A DNA stretch of 64,000 nucleotides from NCBI RefSeq assembly GCF_000317065.1, contig NC_019701.1:186001-250000 (forward strand), given 5' to 3'. A model generated the notes under the pieces. It did no database searches, was not told where the DNA came from, and was given only the letters and a program-made list of their open reading frames with translations. The position numbers and the translations under genes were made by a program. Shown piece after piece: positions 16,317-52,883 of the stretch; the stretch's first letter is position 1; each line of letters begins with the position of its first letter. This stretch comes from Pseudanabaena sp. PCC 7367. GTDB lineage: Bacteria; Cyanobacteriota; Cyanobacteriia; Pseudanabaenales; Pseudanabaenaceae.

Positions 16317-19300
16317 ATGCTCAATCTTCCGGGCTTTCGCATCTCCCACCAGGTTAGTCATAACTCTAAACGGGTTATTTTTCGTGGTGTGCGTACGATC
16401 GATAATCTGCCAGTTTTGCTGAAGTCCATCCCCGATGAATACCCCAGCCCCACCAAGATTTTAAGGCTCAAACATGAGAGTACGATCGCCCGCAACTTAA
16501 ATATTCCCGGCATTGTTAAAGCTCTGACTCTGATTAATAGCGCCCCAGCTCCCGTAATCGTGCTGGAAGATTTTGATGGCATCTTGCTCAAGGATTTACT
16601 CAGCGATCGGCGATTCACACTGCGTGAATTTCTCGAAATCATGATTCAGCTCACCGAAACCCTATCCGCCCTCCACCAGCAAAACATCATCCACCGCGAT
16701 CTCAATCCCTACAGCATTTTAATTAATCCAACCACTTTGCAGGTAAAGATTGTTAATTTCATGTGTGCGGCTTCCCAATTAGCAACACTCAATCAGGTGA
16801 TGCGCACCACCTCCTATGCGGATCTGCCGGATGGCAATCTGGCCTATGTCTCGCCGGAGCAAACTGGGCGCATGAATCGCAGTGTGGACTATCGCACTGA
16901 TTTTTATTCCCTGGGGATTACCTGTTATGAGTTGCTCACTGGACATCTTCCCTTTGATCAACTCGATGCCCTGGAACTGGTGCATTGCCACATTGCCAGA
17001 CAACCAGCCGATGTCCAAGAGGTCAATCCAGATATTCCTGTTGTGCTTTCAGACCTGGTAATGAAGCTGATGGCCAAAAATGCCGAAGAAAGGTATCAGA
17101 CCGCCTGGGGGCTCAAATCCGATCTGCAAGAATGCCTGCGTTTGTTGGTGGAAGACGGCGATCGCCCCTTCATTCCCACGTTCCCCTTGGCCGAGCATGA
17201 TCTAGCCAGCCATTTTCAGATCCCAGCCAAAGTCTATGGCCGCGATCGGCAACTGCAACAAATTGAAGCGGCGTTTGAGCGCACTAGCACAGGGGCAGCA
17301 GAGATGTTGTGGATATCTGGCCAGGCAGGTTTAGGCAAAACTACTTTGATCAAGGAGGCCTGTCAGTTTATTGCCCAACAGCGGGGCTATTTTATGCTGT
17401 GTAAGTTTGATCAATATCAACGTAATATCCCCTACGGCCGCTTGATCGCTGCTTTTAGTGAGTTTATTCGCACTATTTTGACCGAAACCGAAGCCCAATT
17501 GCAACGCTGGCGCGAGATTTTGTTAGAAAACCTGGCGGGGAATGGGCAGGTGATTGTGGACATTATGCCAGAGTTGGAAATTATTATTGGCAAGCAACCA
17601 TCCCTACCAGCCCTGGGTGCGATCGAATCGCAGAATCGGTTTAATCTGGTCTTCCAGAACTTTGCGCGGGCGTTTTGTCGGATTCACTATCCGCTGGCAA
17701 TTTTCTTTGATGGCTTGCAATGGGCTGACCCCACTACTTTGAATCTGCTAGAGCTGATCATGATGGATAATCAAATCCATTCTTTGCTACTGGTCGGTGC
17801 CTATAGACCCTCAAAGGTAACCTTGCATGAAGAGCAGTCTCCTAGCGTAAAGCCAGAAACTCCAACTAACTCAGCTAATCATAGCGATCGCCTCCTCTTG
17901 GCAACAATCGCCCGGATCGAAGCCATGCAGAGCCATCCGGTCAGTGCGATCGACCTGCCGGCTTGGCAACGGCAGCAAGTAGTTCAGCTTCTGGCAGATA
18001 CGCTGCATACTCAGGCTGAGAACGTGGAACCACTGGCAGAGGTAGTTCTAGCCAAAACCCTCGGCAATCCTCTGTTTGTGATTGAGTTTATTCAGCAACT
18101 GGCCGAGCAAAAAGTAATTCAGTTCAATGCCAAAAGCATTAGTTGGCGCTGGGATCTAAGTCAAGCTGAACGGCTGAGTATTACTGATAATGCCGTAGAT
18201 TTGATGGTGGCAAAGTTACAAAAGTTGCCCACTGCTACCCACGATCTTTTACAGGTGGCGGCCTGCGTTGGTGATGCGTTTGGAGCCAAGTTTCTGGGGA
18301 TGATCGTGGATTGCGACCCCGCCGCGATCGAAAATCAATTAATCCCTGCCACCAAGGCTGGTCTCTTGGTGCAATATTATTTAATTGAAACCAGTGATCA
18401 AAAGTCGCTCTCGTTTTTATTTGGCGAAGAAGTTGAATATCGATTTGCCCACGATCGGGTACAAAAAGCGGCCTATGCCCTGCTGGAAGATCAACGTCAG
18501 CAACAATTGCATCTCCAGATTGGCCGAGTAGCGCTGGCTAAATATGAACAGCACCCCACCAGTGCAAGCGAACAAATTTTTGATATTGTGGAGCAACTCA
18601 ATTTGGGGCAAGAGTTAGTTCACAATCGCCAGGAAAAACATCAATTGGCGCGTTTGAATTTGTTGGCTGGGCAACGGGCAAAGCAAGCCACCGCCTATGC
18701 CCTGGCGATCAATTATTTTCAAGTTGGTACTGATATTTTGTTGCATGATTGCTGGCAGACTGAGTATCAGCTTGCCTTTGAGCTATTCCGCGATCGGGCA
18801 GAGTGCGAATATTTATGTGGCAACTTTGCCGCAGCAACGGAATTTTTCCAACTGTGCCTGGAACATGCCCAAAATGTTCAAGATCGGATCGATATTTATA
18901 TCATCCAACTGGTGCTATGGATCAATCAAAACCGCAACCTGGAAGCGATCGACCTTGGCCGTGATGGTCTTCAACAATTAGGGCTTGAGCCGCTGCCCAG
19001 ACATCCCGATCGTGATTTGATTTTGCAGCGCGTCAACCAGATCAAAGCTCAAATTAAGCTGACCCTGAGTAGCCATAACCTGGCGCAAATTGAAAACCTG
19101 GTGGACTTGCCCAATATGCAATCGCCAACCCTGCAACAGGCGATGAAGCTGATGCAATATATGGCAGCGGCAGCAATCCGGTGCGATCGCAGTTTTTATA
19201 TTCTAGTGATCCTGGCAATGGTGCAGCTTTCGTTGGAGCATGGCAACTGTGGCACTTCGGTCTATGCCTACTCCGCCTATGGTTCAATTTTAGGGGCTGG

Positions 19301-22154
19301 GTTTAATGAATATGAAAATGGCCATCAATTTGGCAAGGCTGCTCTGGCATTAAGTGATAAGTTTTCCACCCTGGCCGGGATCAGTCATTTCAGCTATGGT
19401 GGCTTCATTGGTCATTGGCGACGACCCTTCAGTGAATGCCTACAATATCTAATCCATGCCTTCCAACTTTGCGCCGCTAGTGGTGAGCTGCTATATGCCG
19501 TATATACGCTGGTTTTGATCGCCGAGACAGCGATCATCAGCGGTACGTCCCTGGGCAATGCCTTTAATGAGGTGATGCGCTGTAAACAATTGGCTCAGCA
19601 ACGGCAGTATGAAGCGATCGTCAATAATGCCCTGGTGATGCAACAATATGTGCTTTGCTTACAGGGGCAAACCGATAGTGTCACTGACTTTAGCGATCGC
19701 CATATGGATGAAGCTAGTCTGTTCGATCGCTTACATCACTCTGGCCAGGCCGATAGTGCCCTCAGCCGCTACTACATCTACAAAGCCCAGTTACATTATT
19801 TATTTGAACAATATGATCATGCCCTAGAGTGGATTATCAAATCTCGCCAAATTATTGATATTCACTTTGGCGTGGCGATCTTTGCCGAGCATTTTTTCTA
19901 TGAATCGTTGATTTTAGCGGCGATCTATGACTCAGCCGAGCTAGACGAGCGCCGTGATTATTCCCGCTTGCTCAAACACAATGAACGCCGGTTGGCACGC
20001 TGGTCTCAGAACTGTCCGGCTAATTTTCGAGCCAAGCATTTATTATTAAAGGCAGAAATTGCCCGCATTTGTAATCGACAACTGCTGGCGATCAACCTCT
20101 ATGACGAAGCGATCGCCGTCGCCAAGCAATATAAATTTATCCAGATCGAAGCCCTGGGACTAGAACTGGCGGCCAAGTTCTGGCTAGCTCAACAAAAATT
20201 TGACTTTGCCCAACTCCTGTTTAAAAAAGCCTATTACACCTATCAAATATGGGGTGCAGCCGCCAAAGTTAGCCACTTGGAAACTGCCTATGCCCAAATG
20301 CTGGCCACCACCTTTCGTCAGGCTAGTAAGGAGAGCACCGATTACGGTCATGGCTCGCTGGATATTGCCACCGTGGTTAAGGCGGCTCAGACGATCTCCA
20401 GTGAGATTGTGGTGGATAAGCTACTGGCAAAACTGATGGTAATTATGCTGGAAACAGCCGGGGCAAGTAGAGGTTGTCTAGTATTGTTGCGCCAGCAGAG
20501 TTTGTATATTGAAGCCGAGGCGATCGTCAATCAGCCTGAGGTGGCGCGACCATCAATCCCAGTGGCCGAGAGTGATTATTTACCGCTGAGCATCATTAAC
20601 TATGTAGCCAGGGTAAAAGAACCAGTTTTGTTGGATAATGCGCTCCAGCTAGGTCGATTCACCCAAGACCCGCAGGTGCAGGCTCAACAGATGCAATCGG
20701 TGTTGTGTTTGCCAATTATCAACCAAGGCAAGTTTTTGGGCTTGCTATATTTAGACAATAATCTGGTGGTGGCAGCCTTTACGCCAGAGCGACGCGAGGT
20801 ATTGCAAATTCTCTGTGCCCAGGTGGCGATCTCCCTGGAAAATGCCAAGCTGTACGAAGAACAGGGCAATTATTCGCGGTTGTTGGAACAAACCGTGGCT
20901 GAGCGCACCAAAGAACTAGAACAAGAAATCCATGAACGCAAGCGAGCCGAAACCGCACTGCAAGCCTCGGAGGCAGAACTAAGAGCCCTGTTTGCCGCGA
21001 TGACCGATGTCATTTTTGTCACCGATGCAAATGGCAATTTTATTCGGATCGCCCCTACCAATCCGAAGTACCCTTCGCGCCGTCTGGATGAGATTGTCGG
21101 CCAAAACATGAGCGAATTTTTCCCCGATCGCCAAGCCCTTAAATTTCGCACCAGGATTCAACAAACCCTGAATAGCCAAGCGACTCAGAACATAGAATAT
21201 GAGATGAACCTGGAGGGGCGAAAAGTCTGGTTTGCGGCCATTCTCTCACCCATTTCGCGCACTGAGGTAATTTGGGTGGCCCGTGATATCACCGATCGCA
21301 AACTTTCTGAGCAAGCCTTGCAAGAGAGTATGGCCAGGTTGGAGAGCGCTAACCAGGAAATTACCTTGCTGAGCGAACAGCTCAAGGCTGAGAATCTGCG
21401 TATGAATGCGGAGCTAAACATCACTCGTCAACTGCAACAAATGATGTTGCCCAAGGAAGCGGAACTCAGGCAAATTCCAGGGTTGGATATTGCTGGATTT
21501 ATGGAGCCGGCCCAGGAAGTAGGGGGCGATTACTATGATGTGCTCAGCCATAATGGACGGGTCAAAATTGGCATTGGTGATGTGACTGGCCACGGGTTGG
21601 AAAGTGGCATGTTGATGGTGATGGTGCAAACGGCAGTACGCACTTTGCTCTTGGATGAGCAAACTGATGGCAATCGCTTCCTTAATGCAATCAATAAGGC
21701 GATTTACCATAACGTACAACGGATGAATTCAGACAAGAATTTAACCCTGGCCTTACTAGACTATGAGGTGGTGCCGCAGGGAGGACGCTTGCAGATGTAT
21801 GGTCAGCATGAAGAGGCGATCGTGGTGCGAGAGGGTGGCCAAATTGAACGCATTGATACGATCGATTTGGGATTCCCGATCGGCCTGGAACCAGACATTG
21901 CTGAATTTGTTGGCCAAACTGGAATTGATTTAGCCCCAGGGGACTCGGTGGTGCTCTATACCGATGGCATTACGGAAGCCGAAAACCCCGCCCATCAGCA
22001 ATATGGGATTGAACGTTTGTGTGAAATGGTGCGGCAAAACTGGCATCAAAGTGCCGATCGGATGCGAGAGCTAGTGATCGAGGATGTGCGCCGCCACATT
22101 GGTACTCAGCGGGTTTTTGATGACTTCACCCTGCTGGTGCTCAAGCAAAAGTGA
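16317..22154 (+). CDS. Giant signalling protein: kinase-like, AAA ATPase, GAF, PAS, PP2C (SpoIIE)
   Basis: A 1945-residue protein. Domains in order: Ser/Thr kinase-like (about 8-270), AAA/PredATP ATPase (about 310-600; Walker A GQAGLGKTT near 335, Walker B LAIFFDGLQW near 460), a long helical TPR-like region (about 680-1330), GAF (about 1360-1510), a coiled coil (about 1515-1550), PAS (about 1550-1660) and a SpoIIE/RsbU-type PP2C phosphatase (about 1705-1945; GGDYYD, GDVTGHG and YTDGITEAEN). Related cyanobacterial proteins usually end in a histidine kinase; this one ends in a phosphatase, so its likely output is dephosphorylation of a STAS-type partner. The kinase head keeps Lys36 and HRD (126-128), but the metal-binding Asn is Ser133 and DFG reads NFM (147-149), predicting a pseudokinase. 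It stands alone in its transcription unit. Confidence 0.88.
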   Translation: MLNLPGFRISHQVSHNSKRVIFRGVRTIDNLPVLLKSIPDEYPSPTKILRLKHESTIARNLNIPGIVKALTLINSAPAPVIVLEDFDGILLKDLLSDRRFTLREFLEIMIQLTETLSALHQQNIIHRDLNPYSILINPTTLQVKIVNFMCAASQLATLNQVMRTTSYADLPDGNLAYVSPEQTGRMNRSVDYRTDFYSLGITCYELLTGHLPFDQLDALELVHCHIARQPADVQEVNPDIPVVLSDLVMKLMAKNAEERYQTAWGLKSDLQECLRLLVEDGDRPFIPTFPLAEHDLASHFQIPAKVYGRDRQLQQIEAAFERTSTGAAEMLWISGQAGLGKTTLIKEACQFIAQQRGYFMLCKFDQYQRNIPYGRLIAAFSEFIRTILTETEAQLQRWREILLENLAGNGQVIVDIMPELEIIIGKQPSLPALGAIESQNRFNLVFQNFARAFCRIHYPLAIFFDGLQWADPTTLNLLELIMMDNQIHSLLLVGAYRPSKVTLHEEQSPSVKPETPTNSANHSDRLLLATIARIEAMQSHPVSAIDLPAWQRQQVVQLLADTLHTQAENVEPLAEVVLAKTLGNPLFVIEFIQQLAEQKVIQFNAKSISWRWDLSQAERLSITDNAVDLMVAKLQKLPTATHDLLQVAACVGDAFGAKFLGMIVDCDPAAIENQLIPATKAGLLVQYYLIETSDQKSLSFLFGEEVEYRFAHDRVQKAAYALLEDQRQQQLHLQIGRVALAKYEQHPTSASEQIFDIVEQLNLGQELVHNRQEKHQLARLNLLAGQRAKQATAYALAINYFQVGTDILLHDCWQTEYQLAFELFRDRAECEYLCGNFAAATEFFQLCLEHAQNVQDRIDIYIIQLVLWINQNRNLEAIDLGRDGLQQLGLEPLPRHPDRDLILQRVNQIKAQIKLTLSSHNLAQIENLVDLPNMQSPTLQQAMKLMQYMAAAAIRCDRSFYILVILAMVQLSLEHGNCGTSVYAYSAYGSILGAGFNEYENGHQFGKAALALSDKFSTLAGISHFSYGGFIGHWRRPFSECLQYLIHAFQLCAASGELLYAVYTLVLIAETAIISGTSLGNAFNEVMRCKQLAQQRQYEAIVNNALVMQQYVLCLQGQTDSVTDFSDRHMDEASLFDRLHHSGQADSALSRYYIYKAQLHYLFEQYDHALEWIIKSRQIIDIHFGVAIFAEHFFYESLILAAIYDSAELDERRDYSRLLKHNERRLARWSQNCPANFRAKHLLLKAEIARICNRQLLAINLYDEAIAVAKQYKFIQIEALGLELAAKFWLAQQKFDFAQLLFKKAYYTYQIWGAAAKVSHLETAYAQMLATTFRQASKESTDYGHGSLDIATVVKAAQTISSEIVVDKLLAKLMVIMLETAGASRGCLVLLRQQSLYIEAEAIVNQPEVARPSIPVAESDYLPLSIINYVARVKEPVLLDNALQLGRFTQDPQVQAQQMQSVLCLPIINQGKFLGLLYLDNNLVVAAFTPERREVLQILCAQVAISLENAKLYEEQGNYSRLLEQTVAERTKELEQEIHERKRAETALQASEAELRALFAAMTDVIFVTDANGNFIRIAPTNPKYPSRRLDEIVGQNMSEFFPDRQALKFRTRIQQTLNSQATQNIEYEMNLEGRKVWFAAILSPISRTEVIWVARDITDRKLSEQALQESMARLESANQEITLLSEQLKAENLRMNAELNITRQLQQMMLPKEAELRQIPGLDIAGFMEPAQEVGGDYYDVLSHNGRVKIGIGDVTGHGLESGMLMVMVQTAVRTLLLDEQTDGNRFLNAINKAIYHNVQRMNSDKNLTLALLDYEVVPQGGRLQMYGQHEEAIVVREGGQIERIDTIDLGFPIGLEPDIAEFVGQTGIDLAPGDSVVLYTDGITEAENPAHQQYGIERLCEMVRQNWHQSADRMRELVIEDVRRHIGTQRVFDDFTLLVLKQK

Positions 22155-22691: not shown

Positions 22692-25031
22692 ATGGCAATT
22701 ATTAATGTTGACATCACTACCGATGAAAATGATGGCATTGGTGTTGGTGCAGGAACTAGCTTGCGCGAAGCAATTATTGAGGCGAATACCAATGTAGATG
22801 CGATCGATACGATCAATCTGGTTGGTGGTCTCACCTATAACCTGACGCTTTCAGGGGCGAATGAAGAAGCGGCAGCCTTCGGTGACCTGGATATCCTCAA
22901 CAACAACAATATTACAATTCAAGCATTGGGCGGTGGGAATGCCACGATCGATGCTAGCACTTTAGCAGCCGGCGATCGGATTTTTGATATCGTCAGCAGT
23001 GGTGTTACTTTAAACTTGCTTAACCTCGATCTCACTGGTGGTGATGTCAGTGGTGATGGTGGGGCAATTCGGATCAGTTTTAGCGCTGATGCCACGCTCA
23101 ATATCACCGACAGTAATATCACTGGTAATACGGCGAGTAGTGATGGTGGTGGTATTCAGACTTATAACAACGACTTTATTAATATTAGCGGCACCACAAT
23201 CAGTGGCAACAGTGCCGGCACCTCTGGCGGTGGACTTCAGGCTCAGGATAATAACAGTGTCACGATCGATGACAGTGTAATTTCTAACAATAATGTTGGT
23301 TTTTCCTCCGGTGGTGGCCTCTTTTTTGATGATAATAATACCGTCACGATCACAGACACCACGGTTTCTGGGAACAGCGCTGTTGAGGATGGGGGCGGTA
23401 TTTTATTCGACCAGAACAACATCGTAAGCATTACCAGCACCACTGTTTCCAATAACACTATTTCTGGTGGTAGCATTGGCTCTAATGGTGGTGGCATTTT
23501 TGTGGGTGGAGGGATCAATAGCGATATTGAGATTTCCAATTCCACGATCAGTAGTAATACTGCTGATGAGGATGGCGGTGGGATCTTTTTTGCCGCTAAT
23601 GCCAGTGAAGGTTCACCGCCGATCAATATCAGTAATTCCACGATCGCCCTTAACCTTGCTCTGGCTGGTGGTGGGGTTTTTATTGGTGCAGGCGATACCA
23701 ATGTGCAATTCGACAATACGATCGTTGCCACGAATAATGCTGCTGAAGGTTCCGATATTTTTGATAGTGGTGCCACTGTCACCAGTAATGGCTTCAACCT
23801 AATTGGTGACAACACCAGTGTCGGAGCTACTTTCCCGGCTGGCAATCCCAATGGCAATAACGACATTGTGGGTACTAATGCTGTACCGATCGATCCGTTG
23901 CTTGGCCCCTTGCAAAACAATGGCGGTCTAACTGAAACCCATGAGCTATTGGCTGGCAGTCCCGCGATCGATGCTGGTGATCCTGGCTTTACTGCTCCGC
24001 CTGACTTCGATCAACGTGGTGCCGGGTTCGATCGGATCGTCAATGGCATTGTGGATATTGGTGCCTTTGAATCTGGTAATAATGGTGGTGGTGAAATTGA
24101 CCTCAGTGTAATTAAAACCCCTGCCCCTGGCGCTGATCTGACTCCGTTACCCGGCGCGCAAATTACCTACAACATTGAGGTTGCCAATGTCGGTGATGCG
24201 AATGCTGAAAATGCATCAATTTCTGATATCTTCCCTGCTGAATTGTCCGGAGTGGAATGGTCATTCACTGACAGCGAAGGCACTCCGTTTGAGGGGAATG
24301 GCGATCTGAATGTTGATGGCGTAGTAATCAATGGTGGCGATACGGTTACGATTACTGCCACTGGCCATGTTGATTGCGATTTAACCGATGGCACAATCAC
24401 CAATACGGCTAACGTCTCGGTGGTGGGCGATGTAGAGGAAGCTAATCTGGCCAATAATACTGATACCGATAGCAGCTTTAGCCTTGCCGCGAACTCACCT
24501 GGAGTGGTTAACTTTGGCAATAGTTTCTTTGGTACTCCCAATAGTGACGTGATTATCGGCAATGCCAATAACAACAACATTAATGGTAATGCTGGGGACG
24601 ATCGCCTATTTGGTAGTGCTGGTATCGATCGCATCAATGGGCAAGCTGGCAATGACCTGGTTGTTGGTGGTTCTGGGAACGACTTCCTCAATGGTGGCAC
24701 AGGCGATGATACGCTTGATGGCGCTTGCACCACCTTGGGCGTTGGTCAGATCGATCGGCTCACTGGTGGCGGTGGCGATGGTATGGATACCTTTATTTTG
24801 GGGAATGAACTAGGTGCATTCTACGTGGGTAATGGTAATGCTGACTTTGCTTACCTGACTGACTTTGCCACTGGCATGGATACGATCCAGTTGGCTGGGG
24901 CACTAGAAGACTACACCTTTATGCAAACCACTGTGAATAATATTTCTGGGCAAGGCATCTTCCAGGGTGGCGATCTGGTGGCGATCCTGCAGCAATCTAG
25001 TGCAGCGCCTGGGGATTTTGTATTTGTTTAG
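22692..25031 (+). CDS. Beta-helix, DUF11-like and RTX secreted protein (paralogue 1)
   Basis: A 779-residue Gly/Asn/Asp-rich protein. Residues 1-400 form a right-handed beta-helix of about 25-residue repeats (GGGI-F/Y-x-D-N-T-V-x-I-T-x-S-x-SGN). Next come a segment resembling choice-of-anchor Q ([18 protein letters not shown], about 400-455), a DUF11-like adhesin domain (about 470-590; [11 protein letters not shown] to NTDTDS) and RTX nonapeptides GGxGxDxLx (about 610-690) that should bind calcium. The end, [14 protein letters not shown] to FVFV, resembles a type I secretion C-terminus. No Sec signal peptide is present, as expected for RTX export through a HlyB/HlyD/TolC-type channel, none of which is encoded here. 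A surface or extracellular matrix protein is likely. The neighbouring paralogue lacks the DUF11-like domain. Confidence 0.85.
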
Positions 25032-25267: not shown

Positions 25268-27337
25268 ATGGCGGTAATTAACGTTACAACGACGCTGGAT
25301 GAAAATGATGGCGGCCTTGGTCTTGGCGCTGGTGATAGTTTGCGCGAAGCGATCATTGAAGCGAACACTAATGCCGACGCGGTCGATACGATCGTCCTGG
25401 TCAGTGGTCTTACCTATACTCTGACCATTGCTGGCGTTGGTGAAGACTTGGCCGCAACTGGCGATCTCGATATTAATTCAGTTGTGGCTAATGCCAACAT
25501 CACAATCGAGACCGATGGCGCTGCACAAGCCACGATCGATGCTGCTGGCTTAGATCGGGTGTTTGATGTGCGTAATGGCGATGCCACGGTTAACTTCATT
25601 GGCCTGACCATTACTGGTGGTGATGTAGCAGCCCGTGGTGGTGGGGTGCGACTGGTCAATAATGCCACCTTGAATGTGACCGACAGCACGGTTACTGGTA
25701 ACACCGCTGGTGATGGTGGTGGAATCGGTGGCCGCAACGGCAACATCATCACGATTACTAATTCAGAGATTTCTGGTAATACTGCCGATGATGGTGGTGG
25801 AATTTATGTCTACGATACCAGTGGCATGAATCCCGCGCCCAGCCTGACTATCACTGGCAGTGTGATCAGTGGTAACACTGCCACTAATGATGGTGGTGGA
25901 ATTTATGTTTATGAAGACCACACCGTAACAATCACTAATTCGCAGATTACTGGTAACAGTGCTGGCGATGAAGGTGGTGGGTTCTACACCGATGACTATA
26001 ACACTGTCACGATTACCAACAGTACATTCAGTGGTAACACTGCCAATGATGATGGTGGTGGTGCCCATTTTGAAGATGAAAATACTGTCTCGATTACTAC
26101 CAGTACATTCAGTGGTAATTATGCCAATGATAATGGTGGTGGGATTTATTTTGAAGACGATAACAATTTCACGATCGACAGCAGCACGATCGACACCAAC
26201 ACTGCCGATGATGGTGGTGGCATCTACTTTGATGATGGCAATACGGCCACAATTGTGCAGAGCACGATCAGTGGCAACAGCGCTCTCCAGATGGGTGGTG
26301 GTATTTACATCGAAGATGCAGATAACAACGATATTACAGTCAGCCACAGCACGATCGCCTTTAACACTGCAACCACTGGTGGCGGCGGTATCTTTATCGA
26401 TCCTGGTAATGCCACACTGACGATCGACAACACGATCGTGGCTGCAAACGTTGATCCGGCTACTCCAGATATCGACAACGGCGGTACGATCGTTACCAAT
26501 GGCTTTAACATCATTGGTGATAACACCGGTGCAGTGGCCGACTTCCCGGCTGGCATTCCCAACGCCAATGATGACTTTGTGGGCACGGCAATGGACCCGA
26601 TCGATCCGGGCTTGGCTCCCCTGGCCGACAATGGTGGCCCGACTCAAACCCATGCCCTTGGTGATGGCTGTAGCTTAGCGATCAACAATGGTGATCCTAA
26701 CTTTGTGGCTCCGCCTGACTTCGACCAGCGTGGTATGGGTTTCGATCGCGTCTTTGGTGGCCGGATTGATATTGGTGCATTTGAATTGCAAAACTCCGCT
26801 GGCGTTCTGGTCTTTGGTAATACTTCCTTTGGCACGCCCGGCTCTGACACGATCGTCGGTGATGCCAATAACAACACCCTCAATGGCAACGGTGGTGATG
26901 ACAGCCTGTTCGGCAGTGATGGCATCGATCGGGTCAATGGCGGTTTAGGTAATGACTTCCTTGGTGGTGGCCTGGGCAATGACTTCCTCAACGGTGGGGC
27001 AGGCAACGACACAATGGATGGCGCTTGCGGCGGCACTGGCACTGGAGAATTCGATCGCCTCACTGGTGGTGGCGGTGCTGGTGCAGATACGTTTATCCTC
27101 GGCGCTAGCTTTGGTTCGTACTATCTCGGTAACGGTGATGCTGACTTTGCCTACATCAGCGATTTCAACTCTGGTGTGGATACGATCGTGCTGAATGGTG
27201 TGTTGGCCGACTACACGTTTGTGCCGAATACCACGGTAAATAATCTCACTGGTCAGGGCATCTTCAACGGTGGCGATCTGGTGGCGATCGTGCAGCAGCA
27301 GATGATTAACACCGTCACTGATTTGGTGTTTGTCTAA
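25268..27337 (+). CDS. Beta-helix and RTX secreted protein (paralogue 2)
   Basis: A 689-residue paralogue of the preceding gene. The N-terminus ([24 protein letters not shown]), the beta-helix repeats (about residues 100-420, many GGGIYF/VxDDNT units), the choice-of-anchor Q-like segment (GGPTQTHALGDGCSLAINNGD), the RTX block (about 525-590) and the C-terminus (GQGIFNGGDLVAIVQQ to LVFV) all correspond. The DUF11-like domain of copy 1 is missing here, so it was gained or lost after duplication. The start ATG has a GAGGAG Shine-Dalgarno 10 bases upstream. No signal peptide; type I export is expected. A large extracellular calcium-binding protein is likely; its partner is unknown. Confidence 0.85.
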   Translation: MAVINVTTTLDENDGGLGLGAGDSLREAIIEANTNADAVDTIVLVSGLTYTLTIAGVGEDLAATGDLDINSVVANANITIETDGAAQATIDAAGLDRVFDVRNGDATVNFIGLTITGGDVAARGGGVRLVNNATLNVTDSTVTGNTAGDGGGIGGRNGNIITITNSEISGNTADDGGGIYVYDTSGMNPAPSLTITGSVISGNTATNDGGGIYVYEDHTVTITNSQITGNSAGDEGGGFYTDDYNTVTITNSTFSGNTANDDGGGAHFEDENTVSITTSTFSGNYANDNGGGIYFEDDNNFTIDSSTIDTNTADDGGGIYFDDGNTATIVQSTISGNSALQMGGGIYIEDADNNDITVSHSTIAFNTATTGGGGIFIDPGNATLTIDNTIVAANVDPATPDIDNGGTIVTNGFNIIGDNTGAVADFPAGIPNANDDFVGTAMDPIDPGLAPLADNGGPTQTHALGDGCSLAINNGDPNFVAPPDFDQRGMGFDRVFGGRIDIGAFELQNSAGVLVFGNTSFGTPGSDTIVGDANNNTLNGNGGDDSLFGSDGIDRVNGGLGNDFLGGGLGNDFLNGGAGNDTMDGACGGTGTGEFDRLTGGGGAGADTFILGASFGSYYLGNGDADFAYISDFNSGVDTIVLNGVLADYTFVPNTTVNNLTGQGIFNGGDLVAIVQQQMINTVTDLVFV

Positions 27338-32676: not shown

Positions 32677-34200
32677 ATGCGATATTGTTTAAATCCTCGC
32701 TGCGTCGATCCGCGCAACCCTGATGATGCCATTTTTTGTCAAAATTGTGGCACCAAAATCCCCTTAGCCGATTGTTATTATGCGTTTCAACCACTGGGGC
32801 AAGGCCAGGCCACCCGCACTTTCTTGGCGATCGATGAATGCAAACCGTCTAAGCCCAAATGCATCATTAAACAATTTTCGTCGCAGCCCCAAGCTGGGAT
32901 CAACTTCCAAGAAGCCACTGAACTATTTCGGCGCGAAGCCACCCGCTTAGATGAACTGGGCGATCATGAGCAAATCCCCCGCTTGCTAGCTCACTTCGAG
33001 GAAAAAGAGCGGCTCTGTCTGGTGCAGGAATATATTGAAGGACAAAATTTAGCCCAGGTAGCAGCAGCGTACGGCGCTTTTGGGGAAACCGAAATCAAGG
33101 ACTTACTCACACAAATCCTGCCAGTATTGCGCTATATTCACAATCGCCGCATCATTCATCGTGATATCAAGCCCGCAAACATTATTCGCCGTGCCCAAGG
33201 CACTCAACTGGTGCTGGTTGATTTTGGTGCAGCCAAGCTCACCGTTAGTCCGATCAGTGGCGTGGCCAAAAAATCCGGCACCGTGATCGGCAGTGCCCGG
33301 TACGCTGCGCCAGAGCAAACAATGGGCAAGGCCACCTACGCCAGTGATATTTATAGTTTGGGTTTGACCTGCTTGAATTTATTGACGCTGGTTGATCCGT
33401 TTGATTTATATTCTGATCTTGAATATAAGTGGGTATGGCGCGATTATTTACCCAATAACAATCTAATTAGCGATAATTTGGGCAAAATCCTCGATCGGAT
33501 GGTGGCCACGGAGCTAAATCAGCGTTATCAATCGGTGGCAGAGATACTGAAAGATATCGATCGCCCCGATGAAACTAACAACCAGGAAACAGATTATTTA
33601 TTTTTATTCAATGAAGTAATCAGCCGCAACCTGCATCCCAAATCTAGCTCTGCTGCGAGTGCCAGTGAGCATAAGCAAAGTCAATCAGGTGGCTCAAATA
33701 ATCAGTCGACCGTTCAGATTCCCCATATTCCTGATGTTTCCTCGGCTTCCACCTGGAGCGGGCAAAAGAAAAGCCGCGCGATCGCAATCATGCTTTGTTT
33801 CATTGGTGGCTGGGCGGGCTTGCAGAAGTTTTATTTGGGGCAAACTGGCTGGGGTGCTGGTTACTGTATCCTTACGGTGCTTTCTGGCGGGTTTATTCCC
33901 AGCATTCTGTCGATCGCGGAGGGGATTTATTTAATCAATATCTCCGATGCGGATTTTGCCCGGATCTATGGCGTTGAACTGATTGAACCCAGCAACCGTC
34001 GTCCTCGCTATCCAATCTCTGGTAGCAATGGCAGGTCAGGAACCAAAACAGCTAGACATAATCTGGGCTCGGAGCCGCAAAATCTATCAAAGCGGGACAT
34101 TCTAGCGGCCTTGGCTGATTTAAAAGACCTCTACGATCGCGGCATCATCACCGCAGAAGAATACGAAGAAAAGCGACAGAAGTTTTTGCGATCGTTATAA
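32677..34200 (+). CDS. Ser/Thr protein kinase with zinc ribbon, TM2 and SHOCT domains
   Basis: A 507-residue protein. An N-terminal four-cysteine ribbon (Cys4, Cys9, Cys21, Cys24) precedes a Hanks-type kinase domain (about 35-300) with the ATP lysine Lys65, the catalytic loop HRDIKPAN (161-168) and DFG (182-184), all intact, so it should be active. A Ser/Gln-rich linker leads to a TM2 domain (about 365-435) that anchors it in the membrane and then a SHOCT segment (about 475-507). This ribbon-kinase layout is common in cyanobacteria; the TM2-SHOCT tail is the distinctive part and recurs as a separate gene 2 kb upstream. The stop codon lies within a 15-nt tandem duplication. Confidence 0.9.
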   Translation: MRYCLNPRCVDPRNPDDAIFCQNCGTKIPLADCYYAFQPLGQGQATRTFLAIDECKPSKPKCIIKQFSSQPQAGINFQEATELFRREATRLDELGDHEQIPRLLAHFEEKERLCLVQEYIEGQNLAQVAAAYGAFGETEIKDLLTQILPVLRYIHNRRIIHRDIKPANIIRRAQGTQLVLVDFGAAKLTVSPISGVAKKSGTVIGSARYAAPEQTMGKATYASDIYSLGLTCLNLLTLVDPFDLYSDLEYKWVWRDYLPNNNLISDNLGKILDRMVATELNQRYQSVAEILKDIDRPDETNNQETDYLFLFNEVISRNLHPKSSSAASASEHKQSQSGGSNNQSTVQIPHIPDVSSASTWSGQKKSRAIAIMLCFIGGWAGLQKFYLGQTGWGAGYCILTVLSGGFIPSILSIAEGIYLINISDADFARIYGVELIEPSNRRPRYPISGSNGRSGTKTARHNLGSEPQNLSKRDILAALADLKDLYDRGIITAEEYEEKRQKFLRSL

Positions 34201-50542: not shown

Positions 50543-51075
50543 TGCGTGAAGTATGCGGTGAGTAATTCAAGGCGTTCACCCAGCCGGAAAAGCCATCACT
50601 GTAGTTATTGGGCTGCTAAAACTAGTAGGTTTGTTAATCGATTAAATCCATTAAATGGTTTCAAGCTGGTATCTCTTTGACCTGGATAACTTTTTTATCA
50701 ACCCTGGTCTAGCTGAGCCAACACCTGATAATTTGCCTGACTTCAAGCTGGGCAATTGAGTTGATTTCGGTTTGGTAGGGATTAGCCTGGCCTAGATTAA
50801 TGTCAGTTTGATCTTGATCATAAACTTGATCTTGCTCATAAACGATCGATAACGAAGCAGTAATAAAGAGCTAGGGATTGCCAAGAGCAGTTGAACTCAC
50901 CTAGCCCTAGCCCAGCAATAACCCAGTAATAGCAATGAAGGCGGCATGAGCAGTAAAAAGTTGCAGAATATTTTATTTTGTAGAAAAGTGTAAATCTGGG
51001 TGCAATTAGTTAATCTAGTAGTTACCGATCGCCGATCGTTTGTTTGCACATTCATTCCCTATTTCCGGGCAACCA
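50543..51075. other. Intergenic region between CyanoP and the response regulator
   Basis: About 530 bases. An imperfect 18-nt tandem pair (TTGATCTTGATCATAAAC and TTGATCTTGCTCATAAAC) lies near 50808-50852. No gene or terminator was found. Confidence 0.5.
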
Positions 51076-52230
51076 ATGTCCTTAATCTTAATTATTGACG
51101 ACGACCCTACCATGCGTCTGACCCTGTCTCGACTTTTGAAAAAGCAGGGGCACAGTGTTGCTACGGCCACTGACGGTGAGGCGGGATTGATCCAAGTTAA
51201 AGAAATCCAACCATCGCTGATCGTCTGTGACTGGATGATGCCGGGGATGGATGGCTTAGAGGTATGCCGTCGCCTCAAGTCTGATCCAGAGCTAGCCAAT
51301 ACCTACTTCATTTTGTTGACTGCCAAGGATCAAATTGGTGATATTGTTCAGGGCTTAGAAAGCGGGGCTGATGATTTCTTATCCAAACCGCCAAATATGA
51401 ACGAGCTGCGTGCCAGGGTTAGTGCCGGATTGAGGGTATATGATGCTACCCATGCGCTCCAGGTTCAAAAACAGCTCCTAGAAGCAGAGTTAGCGGAGGC
51501 GGCCGAATATGTGCGATCGCTGCTGCCTGCTAATCTGGCCGGTGAAATCAAGGCAGAATCGTGCTTTCTGCCCTCGACCCAATTGGGCGGTGATTGTTTT
51601 GATATTTACTGGCTAGACGATGAACACTTAGTTTTTTATCTGCTGGATGTGGCTGGGCATGGGGTTGGTGCGGCGCTGCTCTCTGTATCGGTGCTAAATT
51701 TACTCCGCACCAGGAATTTGCGCAAGAATGCCCAACTAGGATCAACGGATTTTCGTCAACCAAATGAAGTATTAGCGGCGCTGAATAATATTTTTCAGAT
51801 GTCCAACCACAAGGATATGTATTTCACGATCTGGTATGGCGTATATAACCGTTCTACCCGACTATTGAATTTTGCCAGTGGTGGTCATCCTCCGGCCGTT
51901 TTAGTCGATCCTAATAGTAGTAGTAAGGCAACTCGATTGCGAACTTCGGGGCTGCCGATCGGCATGATCAACGACATTGACTTTGAAAGTGCCACCTACA
52001 AAGTAGCTCCCAATAGTAGGCTATTTCTGTTTAGTGATGGCGCTTACGAAATTACGATGAAAGAAGATATTATCTGGGGGATCGATTCGTTTATTCGTAC
52101 GCTGGTTAATTCCTGTCCAGAAACCGATGGCTCTAGCCTAGATGGTGTCTTAGCAAAGATCAAACAGACCAATGGCCATGGCTCTCATTTTGATGATGAC
52201 CTATCCTTATTGGAAGTCAGATTTGATTAA
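51076..52230 (+). CDS. Response regulator with PP2C (RsbU/SpoIIE) phosphatase output
   Basis: A 384-residue two-domain protein. The receiver domain (1-120) has the acidic cluster DDD (8-10), phospho-acceptor Asp52 in VCDWMMPGMDG, the Thr of LLTAKD and the Lys of DDFLSKPPN. A short coiled-coil link leads to a PP2C phosphatase (about 150-384) with GGDCFDIYWLDD, LDVAGHGVGAALLS, FASGGHPPAVL and LFSDGAYEI. Phosphorylation of Asp52 should control dephosphorylation of a STAS antagonist. ATG 51076 is preferred to a TTG 12 codons upstream because the receiver begins there. The convergent STAS gene 330 bases away is the obvious substrate (inference). Confidence 0.92.
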   Translation: MSLILIIDDDPTMRLTLSRLLKKQGHSVATATDGEAGLIQVKEIQPSLIVCDWMMPGMDGLEVCRRLKSDPELANTYFILLTAKDQIGDIVQGLESGADDFLSKPPNMNELRARVSAGLRVYDATHALQVQKQLLEAELAEAAEYVRSLLPANLAGEIKAESCFLPSTQLGGDCFDIYWLDDEHLVFYLLDVAGHGVGAALLSVSVLNLLRTRNLRKNAQLGSTDFRQPNEVLAALNNIFQMSNHKDMYFTIWYGVYNRSTRLLNFASGGHPPAVLVDPNSSSKATRLRTSGLPIGMINDIDFESATYKVAPNSRLFLFSDGAYEITMKEDIIWGIDSFIRTLVNSCPETDGSSLDGVLAKIKQTNGHGSHFDDDLSLLEVRFD

Positions 52231-52559: not shown

Positions 52560-52883
52560 CTAGCCTTCAGAGATCTTTTGTTCAAACTCTTGGCGATCGC
52601 TATAGATACTAAAAATCTTACTCATGCTGGTGAGATCAAATAACATTTTTACCTGCTCATTCAGGGAGCAAATCGCCATCTCACCATCTACAGTTCTAAC
52701 GGTCTTTAAGGCTGAGACTAATGCCCCCAGGCCAGAGCTATCCATAAAGTTAACTTTTGACAAGTCAATCAAAAGATATTTAGGCCTTTTGGCAGCAATT
52801 AAATTTACTTCTTTCCTGAAGCTTGCTGCGCTGGTCACATCCAAGCGACCATCCGGCACAATTACCTCAAGTTCTTCACTCAT
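52560..52883 (-). CDS. STAS-domain anti-anti-sigma factor
   Basis: A 107-residue SpoIIAA/RsbV-type STAS protein. The phospho-acceptor serine lies in VNFMDSSGLGALVSALK (Ser49 or Ser50); PDGRLDVTSAASFRKEV and YLLIDLSKV form the first strands. Such proteins bind an anti-sigma kinase when unphosphorylated and are reset by PP2C phosphatases such as the response regulator beside it. ATG 52883 is chosen over an upstream in-frame ATG because GAGGAG lies eight bases before it. No anti-sigma kinase or alternative sigma factor is adjacent. Confidence 0.9.
   Translation of the reverse strand: MSEELEVIVPDGRLDVTSAASFRKEVNLIAAKRPKYLLIDLSKVNFMDSSGLGALVSALKTVRTVDGEMAICSLNEQVKMLFDLTSMSKIFSIYSDRQEFEQKISEG

Follow-up and report, generated by a model that had tools for sequence, protein, structure and literature searches.

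The open reading frame at 16317-22154 (+ strand) of the window, the whole 64,000-nucleotide stretch of DNA analysed here, encodes a 1945-residue protein in which a degenerate kinase-like head and an apparently intact SpoIIE/RsbU-type PP2C phosphatase occupy the two ends. We consider it probable that the head is a non-catalytic regulatory module on a cytosolic, GAF/PAS-controlled multi-sensor protein phosphatase. The domain order, the lost kinase and Walker-B residues, the intact PP2C residues and the clade are read from the sequences and the fold is predicted, whereas the inactivity of the kinase, the influence of the head on the phosphatase and the identity of the substrates are what we infer. 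To our knowledge, bacterial pseudokinases have hardly been tested by experiment. Here a pseudokinase and an easily read enzyme lie on one chain, and thus the role of a dead bacterial kinase becomes testable by removal of the head.

Domain organization of the protein

The source genome is a complete cyanobacterial genome of 4.89 Mb in two contigs. The reading frame is open throughout and specifies, all on the + strand, a kinase-like head (residues 1-278, 16317-17150; Pfam Pkinase at 21-262), an AAA_16 ATPase domain (305-492, 17229-17792) with the Walker A motif GQAGLGKTT kept, a TPR-like middle region (approximately 761-1340, 18597-20336; Pfam TPR_CHK1 at 1087-1291) that serves as the marker of the clade described below, a GAF domain (1367-1507, 20415-20837), a PAS_4 domain (1560-1662, 20994-21302) and the SpoIIE-type PP2C domain (1746-1943, 21552-22145), the last three also assigned by Pfam. 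The original prediction had named the AAA, GAF, PAS and PP2C domains in the right order and overlooked the TPR-like middle (~760-1340) between AAA and GAF. It was right that a phosphatase takes the place of the usual histidine-kinase ending, since the Pfam scan of the 1945 residues detected no HisKA or HATPase_c domain and placed SpoIIE at the C-terminus instead. The hydropathy maximum (1.78 as a 19-residue Kyte-Doolittle mean) pointed to no transmembrane region and, because this top stretch falls within the TPR-like middle, the protein is likely soluble. Directly downstream, two neighbouring genes at 22692-25031 and 25268-27337 (both +) encode proteins that are related to each other and carry beta-helix-like as well as glycine-aspartate (RTX-like) repeats.

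The kinase-like head has lost near-invariant residues

The head was compared with 141 distinct related heads, from loci gathered from 58 and 388 genomes. The beta3 lysine K36 (16422-16424, in the motif VLLK at 33-36) is retained, as it is in 138 of the 141 relatives, two of the three others being truncated heads. The HRD motif (126-128, 16692-16700) is likewise retained, where relatives mostly carry HKD, and its aspartate D128 is kept in 137/141. However, the head alignment showed Ser133 (16713-16715, in NPYS at 130-133) in place of the metal-binding asparagine, which is present in 139/141 relatives, and NFM (147-149, 16755-16763) in place of DFG/DFS, although D147 is present in 138/141. All of these residues lie exactly where they had been predicted, and the absence of both metal chelators is borne out as N133S and D147N at near-invariant sites, which speaks against chance. 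Moreover, the P+1 threonine is replaced by Asn174 (16836-16838): the window protein reads DGN, whereas 132/141 relatives read EGT and 138/141 have T or S at this site. Four separate near-invariant head sites are therefore lost, namely N133, D147, the Gly/Ser that ends the DFG/DFS motif, and the P+1 Thr. The P+1 threonine is also lost in the related proteins L064, L091 and L126, all with degenerate catalytic motifs, and is retained in L021, which has only D128N. This agreement between P+1 loss and motif degeneration supports a true loss of kinase function over an alignment error.

A second set of 38 heads, selected by the middle region and not by the head and sharing four members with the first, contained 36 intact heads. 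Its exceptions, L286 (G220:C188; D147N) and L278 (G070:C87; D128N and T174N), are further degenerate heads scattered in the family. Overall, degenerate heads made up ~4-6% of our cyanobacterial samples. With N133S and D147N, the set of residues of active Hanks-type kinases (K, the Asp of HRD, the catalytic-loop Asn and the Asp of DFG) is incomplete, and the substitutions at N133, D147 and the P+1 site support the pseudokinase prediction. Nucleotide binding or activity is not reliably predictable from sequence (PMC4718504), and we infer from the residues that the head would have no kinase activity by the normal Mg-dependent route. Elsewhere in the window, 32677-34200 (+) encodes a second Ser/Thr kinase with intact HRDIKPAN..DFG motifs and a zinc-ribbon-like start.

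Head degeneration is a trait of a four-protein clade

The best head matches (52% identity) carry intact heads, and head similarity alone is therefore misleading. Across the TPR-like middle, three proteins share 40-43% identity with the window protein and the rest ~27-37%. The three are L064 (G200:C2), L091 (G177:C125) and L174 (G252:C336, from Alkalinema sp. RU_4_3), the last being frame-broken in a draft assembly so that its pieces were used separately. In a tree built from the AAA-TPR-GAF columns, with the head columns left out, these proteins and the window protein formed one clade with a support of 100/99, and the same four-protein clade was recovered at 99 in a 40-row quick tree. All four heads are degenerate, each at different residues: L064 has HHSLDPNN..NLG, L091 has HQQIQPQR..PTP together with VLLQ (K36Q), and L174 has YQSLHPRS..DPY, so that the HRD aspartate itself is lost in the clade mates. 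Conservation of Ser133 and NFM, proposed as a check of the original prediction, was not found, as the clade mates have N with NLG, R with PTP and S with DPY; the shared trait is the loss and not these particular residues. On the other hand, orthologues with canonical residues, which were to count against a pseudokinase, did not appear: the search of 388 class genomes brought up no full-length orthologue, and in the other three clade members with a readable head this head is degenerate as well.

When 334 class genomes were searched with a profile, no additional close clade member emerged. Scanning GTDB contigs with one protein brought up no relative; an alignment-based rescan returned 11 loci, and among these L253 (on the contig of G252) and L254 (a sister whose head lies past the contig end) alone fell near the clade. 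G240 is sister to the clade, its head lying past the contig end, and the more distant G190:C29 has an intact head. L064, L091 and L174 all end in histidine kinases, with HATPase_c in each. As the four heads are all degenerate while three of the proteins are histidine-kinase-ended, the predicted loss of kinase function characterizes the clade as a whole and stands apart from the exchange of the tail. The simplest reading is that the head was lost as a kinase in the clade ancestor and the PP2C was gained in the lineage of the window protein, a tentative order drawn from four sequences.

The retained K36 and D128 would be compatible with a different outcome, namely weak, metal-free phosphate transfer by the head, as in CASK, which would put a kinase and a phosphatase on one chain. 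In CASK the DFG aspartate is missing and the beta3 lysine is present, and phosphate is transferred without the need for cations (PMC4718504). However, CASK has an intact Gly-rich loop (PMC4718504), and according to our alignment the loop is absent throughout the family of the window protein, even in intact heads, which weakens the direct analogy. Moreover, the P+1 threonine is lost as well, and the clade mates have dispensed with the HRD aspartate. We therefore regard an atypical kinase as unlikely and favour a non-catalytic head.

The ATPase site

The AAA alignment revealed a second defect, Gly466 (17712-17714, +) at the second Walker-B acid, within FFDGLQWAD. Among 130 relatives with a matching motif this residue is D in 129 and E in one, and it is retained in the other degenerate-headed proteins. 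The substitution suggests an ATPase that may bind ATP and hydrolyse it poorly. Such a protein could be a doubly ATP-defective switch, in which bound nucleotide fixes the phosphatase in one state and only GAF/PAS ligands set it, and the intact Walker A motif would be in accordance with this. However, only one residue is altered, the function ascribed to this acid in ATPases of the COG3899 type is carried over by analogy, and D465, the first of the Walker-B acids, is still present. We thus find this explanation quite improbable in comparison with a regulatory head that acts on the phosphatase.

The phosphatase tail

In an alignment of 41 PP2C tails, the metal aspartates of the window protein, namely D1738 (shortly before the Pfam SpoIIE boundary at 1746), D1755, D1883 and D1935/D1936, all fall on columns with an invariance of 97% or more, and no near-invariant PP2C residue has been lost. 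The phosphatase, as had been claimed, is thus predicted to be intact. It is 59-70% identical to other PP2C tails, with a best match of 70%. PP2C tails occurred on 15/110 rows of the core tree with ten changes, in a sample enriched by the choice of loci, and 13 of these 15 proteins carry intact heads. The architecture alone is therefore not unusual, and the idea that the PP2C tail is a unique feature was rejected, as the tail recurs among relatives. A tendency for dead heads and PP2C tails to occur together was also rejected, there being only 1-2 independent pairs. Similarly, the suggestion that a dead kinase goes along with dephosphorylation as the output does not hold as a rule, considering the 13/15 intact heads and the three histidine-kinase-ended clade mates. 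As tail swapping is common, the dead head and the phosphatase are separate events and, given that three of the four clade members are histidine-kinase-ended, not an old partnership.

Head loss amounts to two changes on the 110-row tree, one in the window clade and one in L126 (G231:C562). L126 is the one protein besides that of the window in which a PP2C tail goes with a degenerate head (WVHKNLNPQT..TGFG, EGE), and it has a long branch. It may join the window clade, but a firm placement there was rejected (81/61 support, long branch), and it is possibly an independent case of a degenerate head with a PP2C tail. L125 was rejected as a relative, since only its PAS-PP2C part matches and it has no head, AAA or GAF.

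The frequent exchange of tails and the common occurrence of headless GAF-PP2C proteins in the family could also mean that the protein is a chance chimera, with a head of no role and only the GAF-PAS-PP2C part functional. However, the head, the PEQTGR..DYRTDFYSLG region and the overall C-lobe are conserved at the family level, and we consider such lineage noise improbable. The retention of the kinase loss while the output enzyme was exchanged argues for a role of the head that is independent of catalysis and of a single output.

Genome-wide, we detected 8 SpoIIE-type PP2C, 18 STAS and 12 RsbW-like matches (8 of the last over the cut-off). These matches make STAS substrates plausible, but no gene neighbour links the protein to a STAS substrate. 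Within the window, a response-regulator-PP2C gene (51040-52230, +) adjoins a STAS protein gene (52587-52865, -), and the two likely form an RsbU/RsbV-type partner-switching pair.

The head is predicted to keep a kinase fold

An AlphaFold2 model of the head from 46 sequences showed a kinase fold with a mean pLDDT of 87 and a pTM of 0.87, poor prediction being confined to a portion of the activation segment (157-170) and to the very end of the C-terminus. The best Foldseek matches were PknB structures (5u94, E 1.4e-20, TM 0.85 by target), and a PknB-like fold is thus predicted for the head. Because a kinase alignment as input would favour a kinase fold, the model indicates compatibility and is not proof. 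The distance of the window protein to intact relatives, divided by their own spread, was 1.17 for the head, 1.34 for the AAA core and 1.08 for the middle, and therefore the head is not the fastest-changing part. Decay of the gene under relaxed constraint, which the damage at both the kinase and ATPase sites and the frame-broken clade mate in G252 might suggest, is very improbable, as 1945 codons (a 5.8-kb frame) are open although 606 of them are one substitution from a stop, the PP2C with its 59-70% identity has lost no invariant site, and the head changes no faster than other parts.

Proposed mode of action

In the reading that we prefer, the head would keep the protein-kinase fold and, coupled to the neighbouring ATPase-TPR unit, serve for binding or allostery, engaging partners or changing shape instead of phosphorylating. 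Signals from the GAF and PAS domains would be passed, with the help of a helical linker, to the PP2C domain, which would dephosphorylate phosphoserine/phosphothreonine proteins, plausibly STAS-domain proteins. The alpha-helical switch of SpoIIE is a structural precedent (PMC5468089). A bolder version is conceivable, although we would not expect it: two converted ATP-binding modules, the pseudokinase and an AAA/TPR ATPase deficient in hydrolysis, could control the phosphatase by sensing the nucleotide state allosterically, without turnover. The protein would then have arisen in a small pseudokinase clade, and a phosphatase would have replaced the histidine kinase as its output at a later stage.

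Comparison with known systems

A catalogue of the STK-GAF-histidine kinases of cyanobacteria appeared in 2007 and noted domain shuffling (PMC2176072). These cbSTKIII/HstK proteins share with the window protein the N-terminal STK-type domain and the GAF in the middle, but have an intact STK head and a histidine-kinase end where the window protein has a degenerate head and a PP2C end. Two intact relatives, L141 and L142, are encoded in its own genome. Closer in layout from head to tail are PP2C-tailed STK-AAA-GAF proteins such as L083, L127, L128 and L134 (PP2C 59-68% identical), which differ in having canonical heads (HKDINPSN..DFG) and cores outside the window clade. With RsbU/SpoIIE phosphatases that have GAF/PAS input the protein shares the PP2C fold, the metal residues, the upstream PAS/GAF and the helical linker, whereas the kinase-like, ATPase and TPR modules are additional. 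CASK resembles the head in the kept beta3 lysine and the absent DFG aspartate, but is eukaryotic and stands in an unrelated context.

A pseudokinase and a PP2C on one protein were not found in the literature searched, which covers few subscription journals; the phosphatase output and the four-protein clade are absent from the searchable papers and, like the ATPase defect, new here. The nearest described group is that of the CP1 kinases of cyanobacteria and proteobacteria, described in 2025, ~40% of which are pseudokinases and all of which are joined to COG3899 ATPases, often with FhlA/GAF or PAS and without transmembrane parts (PMC12599244). The window protein is likewise cyanobacterial, joins its head to an ATPase unit, and belongs to a clade with varied motif loss. 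Of the beta3 Lys, HRD Asp and DFG Asp, at least one of which is lost in CP1 pseudokinases, it has lost the last (D147N) and kept K36 and D128; both GAF (1367-1507) and PAS_4 (1560-1662) are present, and the hydropathy maximum of 1.78 indicates no transmembrane segment. Its ATPase unit, assigned by Pfam as AAA_16 (305-492) and TPR_CHK1, may correspond to COG3899. It differs in the PP2C output, as the CP1 section of PMC12599244 mentions no phosphatase output, and degenerate heads were rarer in our cyanobacterial samples (~4-6%) than the ~40% of pseudokinases reported. Thus, judged by motif loss, GAF/PAS domains and the lack of a transmembrane region, the protein fits the CP1 description and may be regarded as a variant of the CP1-type pseudokinases.
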